Shown: positions 3,250 to 23,421 of the stretch, piece after piece
How the letters are laid out: the number at the start of each line of letters is the position of its first letter
Numbering within the stretch: the first letter of the stretch is position 1
Program-made: the position numbers and the translations under genes
Assembly: GCA_021790895.1 (NCBI GenBank)
Contig: JAJYFM010000004.1
Coordinates: forward strand, 1 to 59,253
Source: a bacterium
GTDB taxonomy: Bacteria > Vulcanimicrobiota > Vulcanimicrobiia > Vulcanimicrobiales > Vulcanimicrobiaceae
Length of the DNA stretch: 59,253 bases
Reading direction: 5' to 3'
Notes under the pieces: generated by a model
The model's database searches: none
Told to the model about the DNA's origin: nothing
Seen by the model: only the letters and a program-made list of their open reading frames with translations

Positions 3250-3740
3250 GGAAGCCCGCGCGCGCGGCGCGCGGCGCTCTCCTCGCGTTTGCGAATCGTT
3301 GCAACAAGGCGCGTGGCAATGCTTTGAAGCAACTCGCGCAGGCTGCGCTCCGCCGCGCCGTGCAGCACCGTCGCATCGAAACGTTCGCCGAGCGCGCCGA
3401 AGGGCGCGTTATATTCGCCTTGCAACCAGAGCTCGGAGGTCGTCGCGCCGACCGGATTGAGCGTCATCGTTCCATGAAAGCGCGGGAAGAGCCCCGGGTG
3501 ATCGGCTGCTTGCATCTCGATGCTCGCCTCCCAACGCACCGGCGCGAGTTCGACGTGCGTTGCGACGGGGATGCGGAGCTCGCCCTGAACCGGAAGGTGG
3601 AGCGAACGAAGGCCGACGGCGAGTGCGAGTTCATCGAAGGGCGGCTCGCGCCGACCGAGTGCGGCGAAGAGCTCCATAGCTTCATCGCGAGCAGCCGATG
3701 CCGGAAGCGGCAAATCGACATGCATCTCGACGGCTTTCAT
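3246..3740 (-). CDS. SRPBCC-like hypothetical protein (tandem copy 2)
   Basis: 164-residue cytoplasmic protein without signal or membrane segment. It alternates short beta-like stretches (HVDLPLPAS, GELRIPVATHVEL, RWEASIEMQA, FHGTMTLNP, ELWLQGEY) and ends in a long amphipathic helix, a pattern typical of the START/SRPBCC lipid-binding fold. The last third (YNAPFGALGERFDATVLHGA followed by LRELLQSIA) aligns with the same region of the upstream gene (YEPPLGQFGRVFDAVLGARI, ARELLADLA), so the two are paralogues. The ATG at 3740 overlaps the upstream stop as ATGA, giving a two-gene operon. Fold assignment is by pattern only and the ligand is unknown. Confidence 0.6.
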   Translation of the reverse strand: MKAVEMHVDLPLPASAARDEAMELFAALGRREPPFDELALAVGLRSLHLPVQGELRIPVATHVELAPVRWEASIEMQAADHPGLFPRFHGTMTLNPVGATTSELWLQGEYNAPFGALGERFDATVLHGAAERSLRELLQSIATRLVATIRKREESAARRARGLP

Positions 3741-4192
3741 GATGCTTGCGGTGTTGCCGTTCGCTCCTCGATCTCCTCGGCGAGATCGGCGAGAAGTTCG
3801 CGTGCGGTCGCCGAAGCGATGCGCGCGCCGAGCACGGCATCGAAAACGCGACCAAATTGACCGAGCGGTGGCTCGTATTGACCGTCGAGTTCCAACGAGC
3901 AGCCGCCGCCGTCGCACGAACGAACTGCGAGCACACCCTCGAAATCGGGATAGGGGCCGCCGCCGTATGGATGCCAACAGACGCGCCACACTTCATCGAA
4001 GCGCAACGGATCTTCGGCGAGTTCGAAACTCGCCTCAACATCGTGGGTGGCTTTCATCGCGACGAGCGGGGCACGCAATTCGATACGAGCGCTGCGCGCA
4101 CTCGCTGCAAGCGGCGCGAGCTTGGCGTGAAGCGCTTCGCGCGCCGCTCGATAGGGTGTCCGGAGCGAACGTTGTTGGTGCAAAGCACTCAT
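3737..4192 (-). CDS. SRPBCC-like hypothetical protein (tandem copy 1)
   Basis: 151-residue cytoplasmic protein and first gene of a two-gene leftward operon. It contains beta-like segments (ARIELRAPLVAMKAT, HDVEASFELA, EVWRVCWHPYG, FEGVLAVRSC, CSLELDGQYEPP) and a C-terminal helix with LLADLAEEIEER. It shares the GQFGRVFDA / GALGERFDA motif with its downstream neighbour, which marks a local duplication. The neighbours on either side (two-component system, PadR operon) give no functional hint. SRPBCC membership is a pattern-based inference and a different ligand-binding fold is possible. Confidence 0.6.
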   Translation of the reverse strand: MSALHQQRSLRTPYRAAREALHAKLAPLAASARSARIELRAPLVAMKATHDVEASFELAEDPLRFDEVWRVCWHPYGGGPYPDFEGVLAVRSCDGGGCSLELDGQYEPPLGQFGRVFDAVLGARIASATARELLADLAEEIEERTATPQAS

Positions 4193-4243
4193 CGTGCGAA
4201 TCCTACCGAAACGGCGTGAAGAATCTGAGAAAAGTCTGAACGC

Positions 4244-4594
4244 TCATGCATAAGCTGAGAAGAATTCGTGAGGATATAGAGCAGCTATCGCGAGTTGCGC
4301 GACGGTCGATCGATGCGTTGCATGGTCGTGCAAGTTACCGGTCGCTAAAATTCCGGGAACGCTCGCTTGCTTTTTTGCGCCGATTCCGCGCGCGAGAACA
4401 GCGGCGATCTTCACCGCCGAATCGGTGACGAGCGCGAGCGAGAGATTCGTCGGCGGGACGTTCGTCGAGAGCGCGAACGCGACCGGCGCCCCGTTCGCAC
4501 TTGCAATGGGACTGAGCGGTAGCGCGCCTTGGGCGAGGCTCGGATTCCCGAAGTCGCCACGGGCGAGGAGGGGCGCTGGAGCCGTGAGGTTCAT
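4244..4594 (-). CDS. doubtful small hypothetical protein
   Basis: An open frame of 116 codons in the otherwise empty 4193-4678 gap. It starts with ATG at 4594, preceded by GAAGG at a reasonable distance. The codons in the first 80 positions favour G or C in third position like true genes here, but the last 35 residues look random (GNLHDHATHRSTVAQ). No domain, signal or motif is recognised. It could be a real lineage-specific gene, a decayed remnant or chance. Its start lies 85 bp from the divergent PadR gene, so the space between would hold both promoters. Confidence 0.3.
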   Translation of the reverse strand: MNLTAPAPLLARGDFGNPSLAQGALPLSPIASANGAPVAFALSTNVPPTNLSLALVTDSAVKIAAVLARGIGAKKQASVPGILATGNLHDHATHRSTVAQLAIAALYPHEFFSAYA

Positions 4595-4678
4595 GGCGAC
4601 CTTCAGTCTAGCAAAATTCCGGTAAAGCCGCAGCAGCGGAAGGAAAACTTATTAAAAGTAATAATAGGAGGGTTTACC

Positions 4679-5095
4679 ATGGCATCCCTCGCCAAGCGCA
4701 CCGCCGAAGAGGTTATCCGCGGGCCGATTAAGAGCAAGACGCTCTTCCCCGTGCTGATCCTCCATTTGCTGGAGGAGCGCGAGGATCACGGTTCGGGCCT
4801 GATGGCCCGCATCGAGCTCCTCTGCTCCGGGTTACTCGCCGTGAATACCAATACGATCTACCCGTTGCTGCGCCGTCTCGAAGAGCGCGGTTTTGTCGTG
4901 GGCCAGTGGGAGCATCCCAGCAAACGCTCGCGAAGGTTCTATCGTATTACTACTGCCGGGAGCGAGCGTCTCGCCCGTATTAAAGCCGGCATGCTGCCCT
5001 ATCTCGATTCGCTTGCGACCTCGATCGAACGGCTCCGCAGCGAACTCTATACGACCGAATCCACTCTGACGCCCGTAAGGAAAACATCAGCATGA
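4679..5095 (+). CDS. PadR-family transcriptional regulator
   Basis: 138-residue winged-helix regulator. It shows the PadR N-terminal signature: LFPVLILHLLEEREDHGSGL, then NTNTIYPLLRRLEERGFV, then RRFYRITTAGSERL, followed by a C-terminal dimerisation helix. The start is ATG 4679, with a strong AGGAGGG at 4666-4672; the upstream in-frame extension (from 4529) lacks such a site and is not protein-like. The stop overlaps the ATG of an acyl-CoA dehydrogenase (ATGA), so it leads a beta-oxidation operon. By analogy with PadR members it may repress its own operon and be released by a pathway ligand, which is inference. The AT-rich stretch 4640-4665 is the likely promoter/operator zone. Confidence 0.92.
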   Translation: MASLAKRTAEEVIRGPIKSKTLFPVLILHLLEEREDHGSGLMARIELLCSGLLAVNTNTIYPLLRRLEERGFVVGQWEHPSKRSRRFYRITTAGSERLARIKAGMLPYLDSLATSIERLRSELYTTESTLTPVRKTSA

Positions 5096-9026: not shown

Positions 9027-10206
9027 GGCGGCTATCGTCTCGGTCGCTCGGACGCCGATCGGGCGTGCGTTTCGCGGCGCTTTCAATCAAACGCCGGGTG
9101 CGTCGCTTGCGGGATTCGTCGCGCACGAAGCGATCGCGCGCGCGAAGGTCGACCCGGCGGAGATCGGCGAGGTCATCGTCGGCACGGGATTGCCGGAGGG
9201 CGCGACCGGAAATAACATCGGCCGCACGACGGCGCTCCGCGCGGGTTGCCCGGTGAGCGTCCCCGGCTCGACCGTCAGCCGGTATTGCGCCTCCGGGCTC
9301 GATGCCGTCGTTGCCGGCGCGCGCCGCATCATCGTCGAAGGCGAAGAGATCGTCCTTGCCGCGGGAGTCGAATCGGTCTCGATGGTGCAGAACGACTTGA
9401 ATATGAAGTTCTACACCGAAGAATGGCTGCTTCGGCATACCCCCGATATCTATATGCCGATGCTCTACACCGCCGATAACGTCGCGAAGAAATACAAAGT
9501 CTCGCGCGAATCGCAAGATGAATACGCGTTCTCGAGCCAGCAACGCACCGCTGCGGCGCAAGCGGCCGGGAAGTTCGATGACGAGATCGTCGCGATGGAG
9601 ACCTGGATGGCGGTCGCCGATAAAGAGAGCGGCGTCGTCACCGAGAAGAAGGTCACGCTGAAAAAAGATGAAGGGAATCGCCCCGACACGACGCTCGAGG
9701 GACTCTCGGCGTTAAAGGGCGCCGTTCCGGGAATCAAAGAGAGCTCGATCACCGCGGGCAACTCCTCGCAGCTCTCCGATGGTGCGGCGGCGTTGATGTT
9801 GATGGACGCGCAGACTGCAAGCAAACGCGGCCTGACGCCCCTGGGCTTCTATCGCGGTTTCGCCGTCGCAGGTTGCGAGCCGGGCGAGATGGGGATCGGC
9901 CCCGTCTATGCGGTTCCGAAATTGCTCAAGGCGCATGGGCTCACCGTCGACGATATCGGTCTCTGGGAGCTCAACGAGGCGTTTGCGGTGCAGACCGTCT
10001 ACTGCCGCGATCGCTTGGGCATTCCGCAGGAGCGATTCAACGTCAGCGGCGGCGCGATCTCGATCGGCCACCCCTACGGCATGAGCGGCGCGCGCATGAC
10101 GATGCATGCGCTGATCGAAGGCAAACGTCGCGGCGCAAAATATGTCGTGGTGACGATGTGCGTCGGCGGCGGCATGGGTGCGGCGGGGCTCTTCGAAGTC
10201 GCCTAA
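9019..10206 (+). CDS. acetyl-CoA acyltransferase (3-ketoacyl-CoA thiolase)
   Basis: Thiolase of 395 residues that cleaves 3-ketoacyl-CoA to acetyl-CoA and a shortened acyl-CoA. The nucleophilic Cys90 lies in [19 protein letters not shown], the His in [17 protein letters not shown] and the second Cys in [15 protein letters not shown] complete the active site. It is the last gene of the PadR-led operon (dehydrogenase, hydratase/dehydrogenase, thiolase), which contains all four steps of beta-oxidation. A strong intrinsic terminator follows 20 bases after the stop. A degradative FadA-type role is inferred from context; a biosynthetic acetoacetyl-CoA thiolase would look similar. Confidence 0.95.
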
Positions 10207-19035: not shown

Positions 19036-20049
19036 TCAGCGTTGCGTGCTGCAATCGCGCAGGATGCGCGCCCACGCCGAACGCTCGCGGGCGGGGCGAA
19101 CGAGCGCTGCGAGCTTTGCCACGTGCGCGCGTAGCGATGCGCGAAAGGCGCGATCGACGACGAAGCGTGTGATGAGCGCGCGCAACGCGGCGGTCGAGCC
19201 GACCGTGTAATAGCCCGGATAGGCTTCCCCGAGTAACCCGATGTTGCCGTCGATGCGCGAAGCGAGCACCGGAACGCGCAGAGCGATCGCCTCGCCGAGA
19301 ACGTTCGCACCGCCCTCCATACGCGAGGAAAGAACGAGCGCGTCACTGCGCGCGAGGAGCGCCAGCGCCGCGCGGGCACCGATCTCGCCGCGATAATAAA
19401 AACGCGGATTGCGCGCCGCCTCGTCGCTCGCGCGGGCGCGAAAGCGTTCGTCGAGAATGCCGCCGGCGAGTTGCACGCGGACGGGAAACGCGCGCGGAAG
19501 GCCGCGTACGGCATAGGCGGCGCGGAGGGGGTCTTTTTCGGCGCGTAGGTGCCCGAGCACCGCGAAGCTCTGCAGCGTGTGCGTGCGTTCTCTCCGCATC
19601 GGCAGCGCCGGAAGCGTGACCGATTGTACGATCGTGTACGCCTTTGCGCGCAGCGCCGGAGCGAGGCGGTCGAGCGCGAGCGGCTGTAATGCAACGATTG
19701 CATCGGCGGCCTCGAGCGCGCGTTGCGCGATGCGGCTACGCGGAAGATCGCGATAGATATCGGTGCCGGTGAGAACGACGATCAGGTGGCCGTTCGGAGC
19801 GCTCTTGCAGTAGCGGAGCGCTGCCGCGGCGCTCTTCTTTGCATGGAGGGCGACGACGATCTCGGCGTCGACTGCGGCGACATCGGATGGGTAGATACGG
19901 ACGCGATAGCCCAGTGCGCGAAAGAGGCGCGCGTAGCGGCGCGCGGTGACGGCGTTGCCCGAGCGCGAGGGTCCGCGCGCCGGGGAGAGAATGGCGATCC
20001 GGGTGCCGCTTCTTCGCGCCGAGGAACTCCGCGATGCCCGCGAGCGCAC
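19036..20049 (-). CDS. senB: selenosugar synthase SenB (glycosyltransferase)
   Basis: GT-B-fold glycosyltransferase of about 337 residues. The SenB family (TIGR04348) couples selenophosphate with a UDP-sugar to give a 1-seleno-sugar, the selenium donor of selenoneine. Family-typical stretches are RIAILSPARGPSRSGNAVTA at the N-terminus, DAEIVVALHAKKSA, VVLTGTDIYRDLP, FAVLGHLRAEKDPLRAA, SSRMEGGANVLGEAI and the late ASRIDGNIGLLGEAYPGYY. The start is uncertain: the conserved N-terminus begins inside the divergent senA gene, so a GTG at 20049 (58 bp overlap with senA) is the nearest usable codon; a rare ATT/ATC start is possible. Assignment rests on recognised sequence features plus senA and selD next door. 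Confidence 0.85.
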   Translation of the reverse strand: MRSRASRSSSARRSGTRIAILSPARGPSRSGNAVTARRYARLFRALGYRVRIYPSDVAAVDAEIVVALHAKKSAAAALRYCKSAPNGHLIVVLTGTDIYRDLPRSRIAQRALEAADAIVALQPLALDRLAPALRAKAYTIVQSVTLPALPMRRERTHTLQSFAVLGHLRAEKDPLRAAYAVRGLPRAFPVRVQLAGGILDERFRARASDEAARNPRFYYRGEIGARAALALLARSDALVLSSRMEGGANVLGEAIALRVPVLASRIDGNIGLLGEAYPGYYTVGSTAALRALITRFVVDRAFRASLRAHVAKLAALVRPARERSAWARILRDCSTQR

Positions 20050-21247
20050 CTTGGCGCTCGTCGCCGACCTGCGCGATGAGGAGCTGCTCGTTCCGCTCTT
20101 GCCGATCATCAACCCGTTGTTGTGGGAGCTCGGTCACGTCGCCTTCTTTGCCGAGCATTGGACGTTACGGACGATGCTCGCTCGTCCGTCGCTTTTGCCC
20201 GGGAGCGAACTGCTCTACGATTCGGCGAAGATCGCCCACGACGACCGCTGGTCGTTGCCGCTTCCGTCGCGGGCGAAGACGCTCGCATATCTTCAGCAGC
20301 AACTCGAAGCGACGCTCGCTGCGCCCTATGTCGACGAACGCAGCGAGTATTTTCAATCGCTCGTACTCTTTCACGAAGATATGCACGGCGAAGCGACGCT
20401 CTACACGCGTCAAACGCTCGCCTACGCAGCGCCCACGTTGCCGACCGCTCCGGCACCGGTCGCGGAGACGACGATCGAAGGAGATGCTTCGATTCCGGCG
20501 GGGCGCTATCGGATCGGTGCGCGTCGCGAGGATCCGTTCGTTTTCGATAACGAAAAATGGGAGCACGAGGTCGATCTCGCCGCGTTCCGGATCGCGAAAC
20601 GTTGCGTCACGTGCGCGGAGTATCGAGCCTTTGTCGAAGACGGCGGCTACCATCGCGAAGCGCTGTGGAGCGCGCAAGGTTGGGCGTGGCGCAGCGAGAC
20701 GGGCGCCGAGCAGCCGCTCAACTGGATGCGTTCGAGCGACGGCTGGGAGCGGCGCCACTTCCAACGGCGTATTCCCTTGCGCGACCGCGAGCCGGTCGTA
20801 CACGTGAACGCGCACGAAGCCGAAGCCTTCGCTCGCTGGGCCGCGCGCCGCTTACCGAGTGAAGCCGAGTGGGAGGTCGCCGCGACCGGTGGCGAGCGAC
20901 GGCGCTATCCGTGGGGCGAGGGCGCCGCAGATCCGGAGCACGCGAATCTCGACGGCTGGTACGGCGATGTCGCGAGCGTCGATGCCTTCGCCGAAGCCGC
21001 GTCACCGTGGGGCTGCGTGCAGATGATCGGCAATGTATGGGAGTGGACCGCTTCGCCCTTTCTCCCCTATCCCGGCTTCGCTCCCGATCCTTATGCGGAG
21101 TATTCGCAACCTTGGTTCGGTGTTCAGCGGTCTCTACGTGGAGGCGCGTGGAGTACCCGCGCGCGATTGATCTCCACACGGTGGAGAAATTTTTACCTTC
21201 CGCATCGGCGGGATATTTTCACCGGGTTCCGTACCTGCGCGCTCTAA
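19991..21247 (+). CDS. senA: selenoneine synthase SenA (EgtB-like non-heme iron enzyme)
   Basis: 418-residue non-heme iron enzyme that forms the C-Se bond between hercynine and a selenosugar. The N-terminal DinB-like domain carries the iron ligands: His49 in NPLLWELGHVAFFAEHW and His128/His132 in LFHEDMHGEA. The C-terminal formylglycine-generating-enzyme-type domain has RLPSEAEWEVAATGGERRRY, MIGNVWEWTASPFLPYPGF and RSLRGGAWSTRARLI. The last two resemble SenA more than ordinary EgtB, and no egtC/egtA genes are nearby. The ATG at 19991 has GGGGAGAG upstream. It is followed after 36 bp by a permease and then selD. EgtB with a sulfur substrate remains the alternative; the neighbours argue for selenium. 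Confidence 0.85.
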   Translation: MAIRVPLLRAEELRDARERTLALVADLRDEELLVPLLPIINPLLWELGHVAFFAEHWTLRTMLARPSLLPGSELLYDSAKIAHDDRWSLPLPSRAKTLAYLQQQLEATLAAPYVDERSEYFQSLVLFHEDMHGEATLYTRQTLAYAAPTLPTAPAPVAETTIEGDASIPAGRYRIGARREDPFVFDNEKWEHEVDLAAFRIAKRCVTCAEYRAFVEDGGYHREALWSAQGWAWRSETGAEQPLNWMRSSDGWERRHFQRRIPLRDREPVVHVNAHEAEAFARWAARRLPSEAEWEVAATGGERRRYPWGEGAADPEHANLDGWYGDVASVDAFAEAASPWGCVQMIGNVWEWTASPFLPYPGFAPDPYAEYSQPWFGVQRSLRGGAWSTRARLISTRWRNFYLPHRRDIFTGFRTCAL

Positions 21248-21283: not shown

Positions 21284-22369
21284 GTGTCCGCATCAGCAGA
21301 AACCGTCGGCCGCCAGAACACGCGATCGTTCGTTCTCGGCACGTTGCTCTTTATTGCGATCGCCGTTATCGGTCTCTATATCGTGAAGTGGGCTCCCTAT
21401 TGGGGGAAAGCGCACCTCGCCGCAGCGACGCATTCGATCGGCCCGTCGATGGTCAGCGGGAAGAGCGCCGCTCCGCCGGCGCTTGGTTGGGCTGCTGCGT
21501 GGCAGTATGCCTTTGCGTACTTTAATGCGGTCTGGACCGCAGTCGTTCTTGCTTTGCTCCTCGGAGCAACAATTCAAGTCTTCGTTCCGCGGAAGTGGCT
21601 GCTCCGGCTTCTCGGCGCGGCGAACGCGCGCTCGGCGGCGATCGCCGGTGCGATCTCGCTCGCCGGAATGATGTGCACCTGCTGCACCGCCCCGATCGTC
21701 GTCGGGATGCGCAAGCAGCGCACCAGCATGGAAGGGGCGCTCGCATTTTTCCTCGGCAATCCGTTGCTGAATCCCGCGGTACTCATCTTTATGGGCTTCG
21801 TTTTAGGGTGGCAGTTTGCGGCGATTCGCCTCGTCTCGGCGGTCCTGTTGATCGCGGTCGTCGTCGCCGTCGCCCATCGCTTCGGTGCCGCGCTTCCAAA
21901 CGCGCAGGTCGATGCACCGAGTTTCGATCTTGCGCCGATCGAACGCCCCGACGCCAACGTGCGAACGCTTTCGCTCGCGTGGCTCAAAGAGATGTGGAAC
22001 GAGATCGTCGCCATTCTTCCGGGCTACATCGCCATCGTTCTTCTGCTCGGCGCGCTGCGTGCATTTCTCTTCCCGCCGGGACTGACGCTCCATACAGCGG
22101 GAATTCTTCCGACGGCGTTAGTCGCGCTTGCCGGTACGTTCTTCGTCGTCCCAACGGCGGGTGAAGTCCCGATCGTGCAAACGCTGCTCGCGCACGGAAT
22201 GAGCACGAGCGCGGCGATTGCATTGATCGTTACGCTTCCGGCGATCAGTCTGCCTTCGCTCTTTATCGTACGGAAGGTCTTTCCGCGAAAGGTGCTCGTG
22301 GCAACGTTCGGCATTATTTTCGTGGGTGGCGTCGTGATCGGTAGCATCGCCTCGATCTTTTTCCACTAG
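21284..22369 (+). CDS. DUF318/ArsP-superfamily permease with a CTCC motif
   Basis: 361-residue inner-membrane protein with about nine hydrophobic helices. The two-repeat layout of the predicted-permease family PF03773 is clear: GMMCTCCTAPIVVGM, then EGALAFFLGNPLLNPAVLIF, and in the second half FFVVPTAGEVPIVQTLLAHG. The usual CSC-type motif is replaced by CTCC, giving three cysteines within the membrane path. ArsP relatives export trivalent organoarsenicals through such cysteines. GTG 21284 has GGGAGAG upstream. It lies between senA (36 bp) and the selenophosphate synthetase gene (11 bp), so transport of a selenium compound is a plausible inference; direction and substrate are unknown. Confidence 0.85.
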   Translation: MSASAETVGRQNTRSFVLGTLLFIAIAVIGLYIVKWAPYWGKAHLAAATHSIGPSMVSGKSAAPPALGWAAAWQYAFAYFNAVWTAVVLALLLGATIQVFVPRKWLLRLLGAANARSAAIAGAISLAGMMCTCCTAPIVVGMRKQRTSMEGALAFFLGNPLLNPAVLIFMGFVLGWQFAAIRLVSAVLLIAVVVAVAHRFGAALPNAQVDAPSFDLAPIERPDANVRTLSLAWLKEMWNEIVAILPGYIAIVLLLGALRAFLFPPGLTLHTAGILPTALVALAGTFFVVPTAGEVPIVQTLLAHGMSTSAAIALIVTLPAISLPSLFIVRKVFPRKVLVATFGIIFVGGVVIGSIASIFFH

Positions 22370-22380
22370 CGAGCGATCTG

Positions 22381-23421
22381 GTGACGAAGACCGATATAAC
22401 GCGACTGACCCATCTCTCAAGCTGCGCAGGTTGAGCGTCGAAGCTCGACGCACGTGCGCTCGCGCAGGTTCTGCGCGACCTCCCCCCGGTTCTCGACCCA
22501 CGCGTTCTCGTCGGTACGGCAAACGCCGACGATGCGGGCGTCTATCGTCTCGACGACGAGCATGCGATCGTCGGGACGTTGGATTTCTTCACGCCGATCG
22601 TCGACGATCCATACGATTTCGGTCGGATCGCTGCGGCAAACGCGCTATCGGATATCTACGCGATGGGCGCAACTCCGCTCTTTGCGTTGGCGATCGCCGC
22701 ATTTCCCGAAGATATGGAAGCAGAGACGATCGCTGCAATCCTGCGCGGAGGCATCGATAGCGCGGCGTCGGCGGGGATCGCGGTGATCGGTGGACATACG
22801 ATCAAAGACGACGAACCGAAGTACGGGCTGGCCGTGACCGGCATCGTGCATCCGCAGCGGATCGTGCGGAACAATTCCGGACGCGCCGGCGACGCGCTGG
22901 TGCTGACGAAAGCGATTGGAACGGGAATTCTCACGACCGCGCGGCGCTCCGACACCATCGGCCCCGAGGCACTTGCCCCGGCCGTTGTATCGATGTCGAC
23001 ATTGAATCGATGCGCTTCGGAATGTGCGTTGCGTTTCGGTGTGAGCGCGATGACCGATATCACCGGGTTTGGGCTCTTGGGGCACCTTCACGAAATGCTC
23101 GGAACGGGAATCGGCGCGAACATTGAAGCGAAGAGCGTTCCGTTACTGCCGGGAGTGCTCGAGCTCGCGCGCGAGAACATCGTACCGGGAGGGACGCGAA
23201 CGAATCTCGATGCGGCGCTCGCCGACGGGGCGCGCTTTCGCGATGATGTCGCAAAAGAGTTGCGTCTCGCGCTTGCCGATGCTCAGACCTCCGGCGGGCT
23301 TTTAATCGCCATTCCCGAGCGCGAACTCGATCCGTTTCTCGCCGCGTTGCGAAGCAACGGCGTCGCGGAGGCGGCACGAATCGGCTCGCTCGTTCAGGGA
23401 ACCGGCATCACGATCGCGTGA
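22381..23421 (+). CDS. selD: selenophosphate synthetase (SelD/SenC), selenocysteine-containing by in-frame TGA
   Basis: Makes selenophosphate from selenide and ATP, for SenB and probably for selenocysteine tRNA. Reading from GTG 22381, the frame gives 346 residues, the length of E. coli SelD, if the TGA at 22432-22434 is read as selenocysteine (U18). The N-terminus RLTHLSSCAGUASKL aligns with E. coli RLTQYSHGAGCGCKI: U18 falls on catalytic Cys17 and Lys21 on Lys20. After the TGA the same frame continues with the ATP-binding TANADDAGVY and GTLDFFTPIVDDPYDFGR; later are GGHTIKDDEPKYGLAVTG, TDITGFGLLGHLHEM and DAQTSGGLLIA. The first downstream ATG (22579) would drop residues essential for catalysis. 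A hairpin with a GG loop follows the TGA. Alternatives are a TGC-to-TGA mutation or sequencing error. Confidence 0.88.
22432..22477 (+). promoter_or_regulatory. selenocysteine UGA codon with bacterial-SECIS-like hairpin
   Basis: The UGA at 22432-22434 is followed by a hairpin at 22461-22477 with a six-pair stem (CGCGCA with TGCGCG) and loop GGTTC. The loop starts 32 bases after the UGA, within the 16-37 base window used in published bacterial SECIS models, and its leading GG is the conserved SelB-binding feature. E. coli fdhF has a similar UGCA-GGUC-UGCA tip. A second perfect hairpin (GCGTCGA-AGC-TCGACGC, 22435-22451) directly follows the UGA. It may compete with or support the element. Confidence 0.7.

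Follow-up and report, generated by a model that had tools for sequence, protein, structure and literature searches.

Bacteria lack an identified selenium transporter, and a permease encoded between senA and selD is a strong candidate that can be put to the test. There is about an even chance that this permease is dedicated to selenium metabolism, that its substrate is a small thiol-reactive selenium species and that it works, most likely inward, in the service of SelD. Four separate lines of evidence tie the subgroup to selenium: linkage with sen genes and selD, co-occurrence with SelD, nearby LysR genes of the selenium type or a sel island, and a selenocysteine (Sec) codon in the conserved motif. 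More tentatively, and at somewhat less than an even chance, the whole subgroup carrying the CTCC or UTCC motif, including YraQ of E. coli, may be a dedicated bacterial selenium transporter in which a Sec residue in the transport path is part of selenium handling.

According to a 2026 review, prokaryotes have no known specific high-affinity selenium uptake system (PMC13188914), and the deletion of five candidate selenium transporters in Methanococcus gave no phenotype (PMC11097638). The preliminary description of this DNA knew of no transporter assigned to the selenoneine pathway, and the open-access literature searched likewise contained none for selenoneine synthesis. It also offered nothing relevant on COG0701/DUF318 with SelD or on SaoE, and no account of the UTCC subgroup, its hairpin, its linkage to sen genes and SelD or its relationship to YraQ was found in it.

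The permease, its sen neighbourhood and its family

The window, the whole stretch of 59,253 nucleotides that was analysed, contains a sen cluster in which SenA, SenB and SelD/SenC all score at their curated cut-offs beside the permease (Table 1). The permease open reading frame was read directly and has a GTG start and a plausible ribosome site. Direct reading also confirmed the two gaps given in the preliminary description: 36 bp separate the permease from the senA stop codon (TAA, 21245 to 21247), and 11 bp separate it from the GTG start of SelD/SenC at 22381. The permease is the sole PF03773 gene found in this 84%-complete genome. Its arrangement within the sen genes is more than chance, as the genus has retained it and further genera and phyla show it again.

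Table 1. Features of the permease locus, with positions in the window
Feature	Position	Strand	Details
YraQ-type PF03773 permease, motif MM-C131-TCC (Cys form)	21284..22369	+	361 aa; AlphaFold mean pLDDT 90.5
CTCC motif codons (C131-T-C-C)	21674..21685	+	First codon is TGA (Sec) in 12 phylum relatives and 4 others
SenA, selenoneine synthase	19991..21247	+	NF041186, 481 bits versus cut-off of 420
SenB, selenosugar synthase	19036..20055	-	TIGR04348, 304.5 bits versus cut-off of 300
SelD/SenC, selenide water dikinase	22381..23421	+	TIGR00476; in-frame TGA (Sec) at 22432-22434
Sec codon (UGA) of SelD	22432..22434	+	Read-through LTHLSSCAGU-ASK; hairpin directly 3'

The sequence of SelD/SenC in the window predicts that this neighbour, too, is a selenoprotein. 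Its in-frame TGA stands at the known catalytic position and is followed directly by a strong hairpin, the same Sec is found in SelD of 15 relatives, and a SelB gene is present elsewhere in the genome. Because this Sec is encoded by UGA, a standard open reading frame caller places the start of SelD too late. On the other side of the permease, senB is divergent from senA and its exact start is unsettled; the 5' ends of the two genes overlap, or nearly so, at 19946 to 20112, and a shared promoter region would thus fall within coding sequence.

The identification as a PF03773-type permease with a CTCC Cys motif, made in the preliminary description, holds: the protein scores 121.2 bits against PF03773 (ArsP_1; gathering cut-off, 32.3) over positions 15 to 292 of 294, and the residues C131-T-C-C were read directly. 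The motif is invariant in 63 aligned relatives, Sec being counted as C. It had been noted as a motif of the sen-operon permease, in which it is indeed present; it is not peculiar to sen operons, however, and marks a wider YraQ-type subgroup. The other PF03773 genes of the phylum are 24 to 26% identical to the window protein where alignable and have the motif SSSCSY.

Judged by its sequence, E. coli YraQ belongs to the CTCC subgroup, and the proposal can therefore be tested in a model organism; E. coli also encodes SelD, which served as a control in the SelD scan. YraQ of E. coli and Klebsiella (UPF0718, PF03773) shares 46 to 48% identity over 340 aa with the window permease (46% for Klebsiella), and in both organisms the chromosomal yraQ encodes an identical MMCTCC; the helix breaks described below are conserved too. 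The enterobacterial proteins differ in having PTAAE where the window permease has PTAGE, and their gene adjoins dolP, without selenium or sen genes nearby, whereas the window permease sits in a sen operon. The literature searches on selenoneine transport, COG0701/DUF318 with SelD and SaoE brought up no functional work on YraQ.

The name ArsP_1 and weak matches to two named families would suit an arsenic or soft-metal efflux pump (ArsP or Cu/Zn type) whose linkage to sen genes is incidental. This is very unlikely, as the scores fall far below the equivalog cut-offs: 37.3 bits versus 300 for the SO_0444 Cu/Zn efflux family (NF033936) and 59.8 bits versus 325 for the SaoE efflux transporter (NF040736). 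The SO_0444 family belongs to the same Pfam permease superfamily but to a different subfamily, and its metal function is assigned by name. The likeness to SaoE, although weak, extends across most of the length of the permease, and no further Sao gene occurs among the permease neighbours scanned. Selenium linkage that recurs across several phyla also speaks against arsenic or metal efflux, as do the neighbours of unlinked copies considered below; arsenic or metal transport was consequently rejected as the leading view. YedE/FdhT (PF04143), another predicted selenium transporter, is of a different protein family from the window permease. It is a membrane protein tied to genomes with SelD and has a Sec-containing relative (PMC5322559, PMC13188914), and deletion of a YedE gene in Methanococcus gave no selenium phenotype (PMC11097638).

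Association with selenium genes within and beyond the phylum

The preliminary description had proposed a neighbourhood survey for co-occurrence of the permease subgroup with sen genes, and such co-occurrence was found among 149 genomes of the window's phylum. A close relative of the permease is present in 23 genomes and SenA, at or just below its curated cut-off, in 24 (one truncated at a contig end). Both are present in 20 genomes, the permease only in three, SenA only in four and neither in 122 (Fisher p = 5e-18, uncorrected for kinship). In addition, 20 of the 23 permease genes lie beside sen genes or selD: 18 adjoin senA, one adjoins senB and one is placed 9 bp before a Sec-type selD. Two of the remaining three are at contig ends. 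In the window's genus, senA and selD flank the permease, in others it is convergent with selD, and this variation in gene order between genera indicates that the association outlived rearrangement.

As a control, PF03773 genes of any kind were counted and are present in 90 of the 149 genomes. No other PF03773 gene is located on the SenA contig of any SenA genome of the phylum, and four others of the phylum that were read have SSSCSYAA in place of CTCC; these other permeases are without a sen link. One of this SSSCSYAA type (L139; G015 contig 43) is found just downstream of selB. The four genomes with senA only (G029 to G032) lack a CTCC permease and count against the proposal; three of them (G029 to G031; loci L133 to L135) represent a neighbouring family. 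In G029, a gene resembling disulfide oxidoreductases is close to senA, and a similar gene follows the sen operon in the Bacillota locus L075; it is possibly a candidate selenium reductase.

A scan of 84,980 genomes provided 64 further loci, of which 12 lie no more than 8 kb from SenA or SelD (Bacillota, Pseudomonadota and Actinomycetota). SelD is encoded in 48 of 50 subgroup genomes outside the phylum, and the two without it are metagenome-assembled genomes (MAGs), one with a Sec permease and the other with SenA. The probability of finding SelD in 48 of 50 by chance ranges from 7e-20 to 4e-6 for assumed base rates of 35 to 70%. Within single families the association is weaker, which also counts against the proposal: SelD is present in 3/3 permease genomes of the Enterococcaceae versus a base rate of 44/105 (p = 0.07), and in the Micromonosporaceae it does not track the permease (11/15 versus 212/301, not significant). 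Of the four Micromonosporaceae permeases without SelD, three belong to a more distant CTCCAAP branch.

The link to selenium is borne out further by gene context. LysR genes adjoining five permeases form one cluster, and NF040786 (selenium metabolism) is the best match of all four that were scanned, one of them above the cut-off. On a plasmid of Ligilactobacillus salivarius, the permease gene comes directly after a YeeE/YedE gene and borders an island that contains selD, selA, selB, yedE, yedF, DUF3343 and proline reductase (prd) genes. Most unlinked permease copies stand alone, a further point against the proposal; among 92 of their neighbours, no family occurs in more than two, and the 25 families listed, of 84 near them, include no arsenic family. 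Neither a lack of association with sen genes nor an association with arsenic, the two outcomes named beforehand as counting against the idea, was therefore encountered.

Within the phylum, SelD is above the cut-off in 119 of the 149 genomes, and the permease there consequently tracks SenA rather than SelD. This would fit an exporter or importer of selenoneine or of selenosugar intermediates; the preliminary description had envisaged export. As a general function, such a role is highly improbable and is not supported by the wider survey: SenA is above the cut-off in only 5 of the 50 genomes outside the phylum, and enterobacterial YraQ lacks sen context. Selenoneine transport could be a local specialization. 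CTCC as a signature of sen operons only was likewise rejected, as most CTCC loci outside the phylum are without sen genes. The best reading is that the permease is specific neither to selenoneine nor to arsenic and that uptake is favoured over efflux, since the company the gene keeps is SelD and SenA, not tolerance genes, and since almost all of the sampled genomes that have it are those of selenium users.

Predicted structure and proposed mechanism

The AlphaFold model is confident, and its secondary structure points to a protein of two similar halves with a pair of broken helices in each. The first half has its breaks at MMCTCC and GNPLLNP, the second at PTAGEVP and LPAISLP, and many of the invariant residues are located at them. 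A fold search of the PDB with the permease returned no significant match and sequence comparison revealed no solved structural relative, so the structure gave no functional lead.

The data establish the family, the gene order, the co-occurrence with SenA or SelD and, in relatives, the Sec codon with its conserved hairpin; that the protein is a transporter at all, what it carries, that it works inward and what Cys or Sec does in it are what we infer from context. The permease would move selenite, selenide or a thiol-bound form of selenium through the inner membrane in concert with SelD, which would convert the imported selenium to selenophosphate, for selenoneine in the window organism and for other uses elsewhere. 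The paired helix breaks would come together in the core of the membrane to make up the substrate site. C131, C133 and C134 (with Sec131 in many relatives) would lie at one break and PTAGE (290 to 294) at the matching break of the second half, and Cys131, or Sec, could act together with Cys133 and Cys134 as soft ligands.

The selenocysteine form and its hairpin

In 12 relatives within the phylum, the permease gene has one in-frame TGA, always at the first Cys of the motif, giving MM-U-TCC; the window's own lineage has the Cys form. Outside the phylum, UTCC is found in one locus of Rokubacteria (L066) and three of Bacillota (L075, L080 and L101), and two of these four Sec permeases are directly upstream of senA. 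UGA thus occupies a conserved Cys position in 16 relatives, and homology continues past it. A conserved stem-loop of the kind expected of a SECIS element is present just downstream: in intact Sec forms, a hairpin of 8 bp, with a loop beginning GG, starts 12 nt after the UGA. In the alignment of this hairpin, 96.2% of cells are paired, three pairs have changed on both sides and seven cells are compensatory; 0/500 shuffles reach its covariation score, which also exceeds all slid controls. The Cys forms do not keep the hairpin (44% paired, no compensatory cells). Sec machinery, as judged by SelB, is above the cut-off in 15 of the 16 Sec-permease genomes, with a partial match in G080. Sequencing error was rejected as a source of the UGAs, given the same codon in 16 genomes of three phyla and the covarying hairpin.

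On a tree of 63 members, Sec and Cys must have replaced one another six times, and well-supported branches force at least four of these changes. Repeated exchange of this kind is usual in selenoprotein families. Several lineages are thus predicted to make the permease as a selenoprotein, and the UTCC subgroup is a candidate selenoprotein family whose genes are split at the UGA by gene callers. Sec in a PF03773-type permease is not wholly new, as a UxC selenoprotein of the SO_0444 family (WP_014809615.1) has already been listed (PMC13188914).

UxC and UxxC are frequent redox motifs among selenoproteins (PMC13188914) and, together with the repeated exchange of Sec and Cys, they would be consistent with a membrane-embedded redox protein in which U/CxC(C) reduces selenite or passes selenium to SelD, no true transport taking place. 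We consider this very unlikely, as the entire protein is built as an integral membrane protein whose helices break in a permease-like manner, and the PTAGE and GNPxLNP breaks are conserved separately from the Cys motif.

The main rival to uptake is efflux, because the named relatives are efflux pumps and the Sec protein is made only when selenium is present. The permease would then be a valve exporting excess selenide, selenite or organoselenium and sparing selenium-using cells from self-poisoning. The decoding of UGA needs a supply of selenium, and a Sec form made only when selenium is plentiful suits such a relief valve. The motif also suits soft ligands, and the PF03773 relatives NF033936 and NF040736 are efflux pumps by name, which counts against import; so does the difficulty of making a Sec-dependent importer when selenium is scarce, a problem shared by Sec-containing SelD. 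Nevertheless, one would expect to find a pump for detoxification in cells without selenium use as well, yet nearly all subgroup genomes outside the phylum encode SelD, and a supply role accounts no less well for the operonic pairing with SelD and SenA. Efflux is thus rather unlikely, though it is to be taken seriously, and selenium uptake in the service of SelD is preferred.

Two Sec-type copies deserve separate mention. In L047 (G082, positions 9452 to 9823), a Sec-type permease beside senA ends shortly after UTCC, and this copy was excluded from the Sec and hairpin set as truncated after the motif; the rest of the gene was not found nearby, and the copy therefore looks broken. In the Rokubacteria MAG (L066, positions 3711 to 4769), the Sec-type permease is near a SenB-related glycosyltransferase whose best model is NF038229 (343 bits, under the cut-off of 400) and which could hint at another selenosugar pathway.
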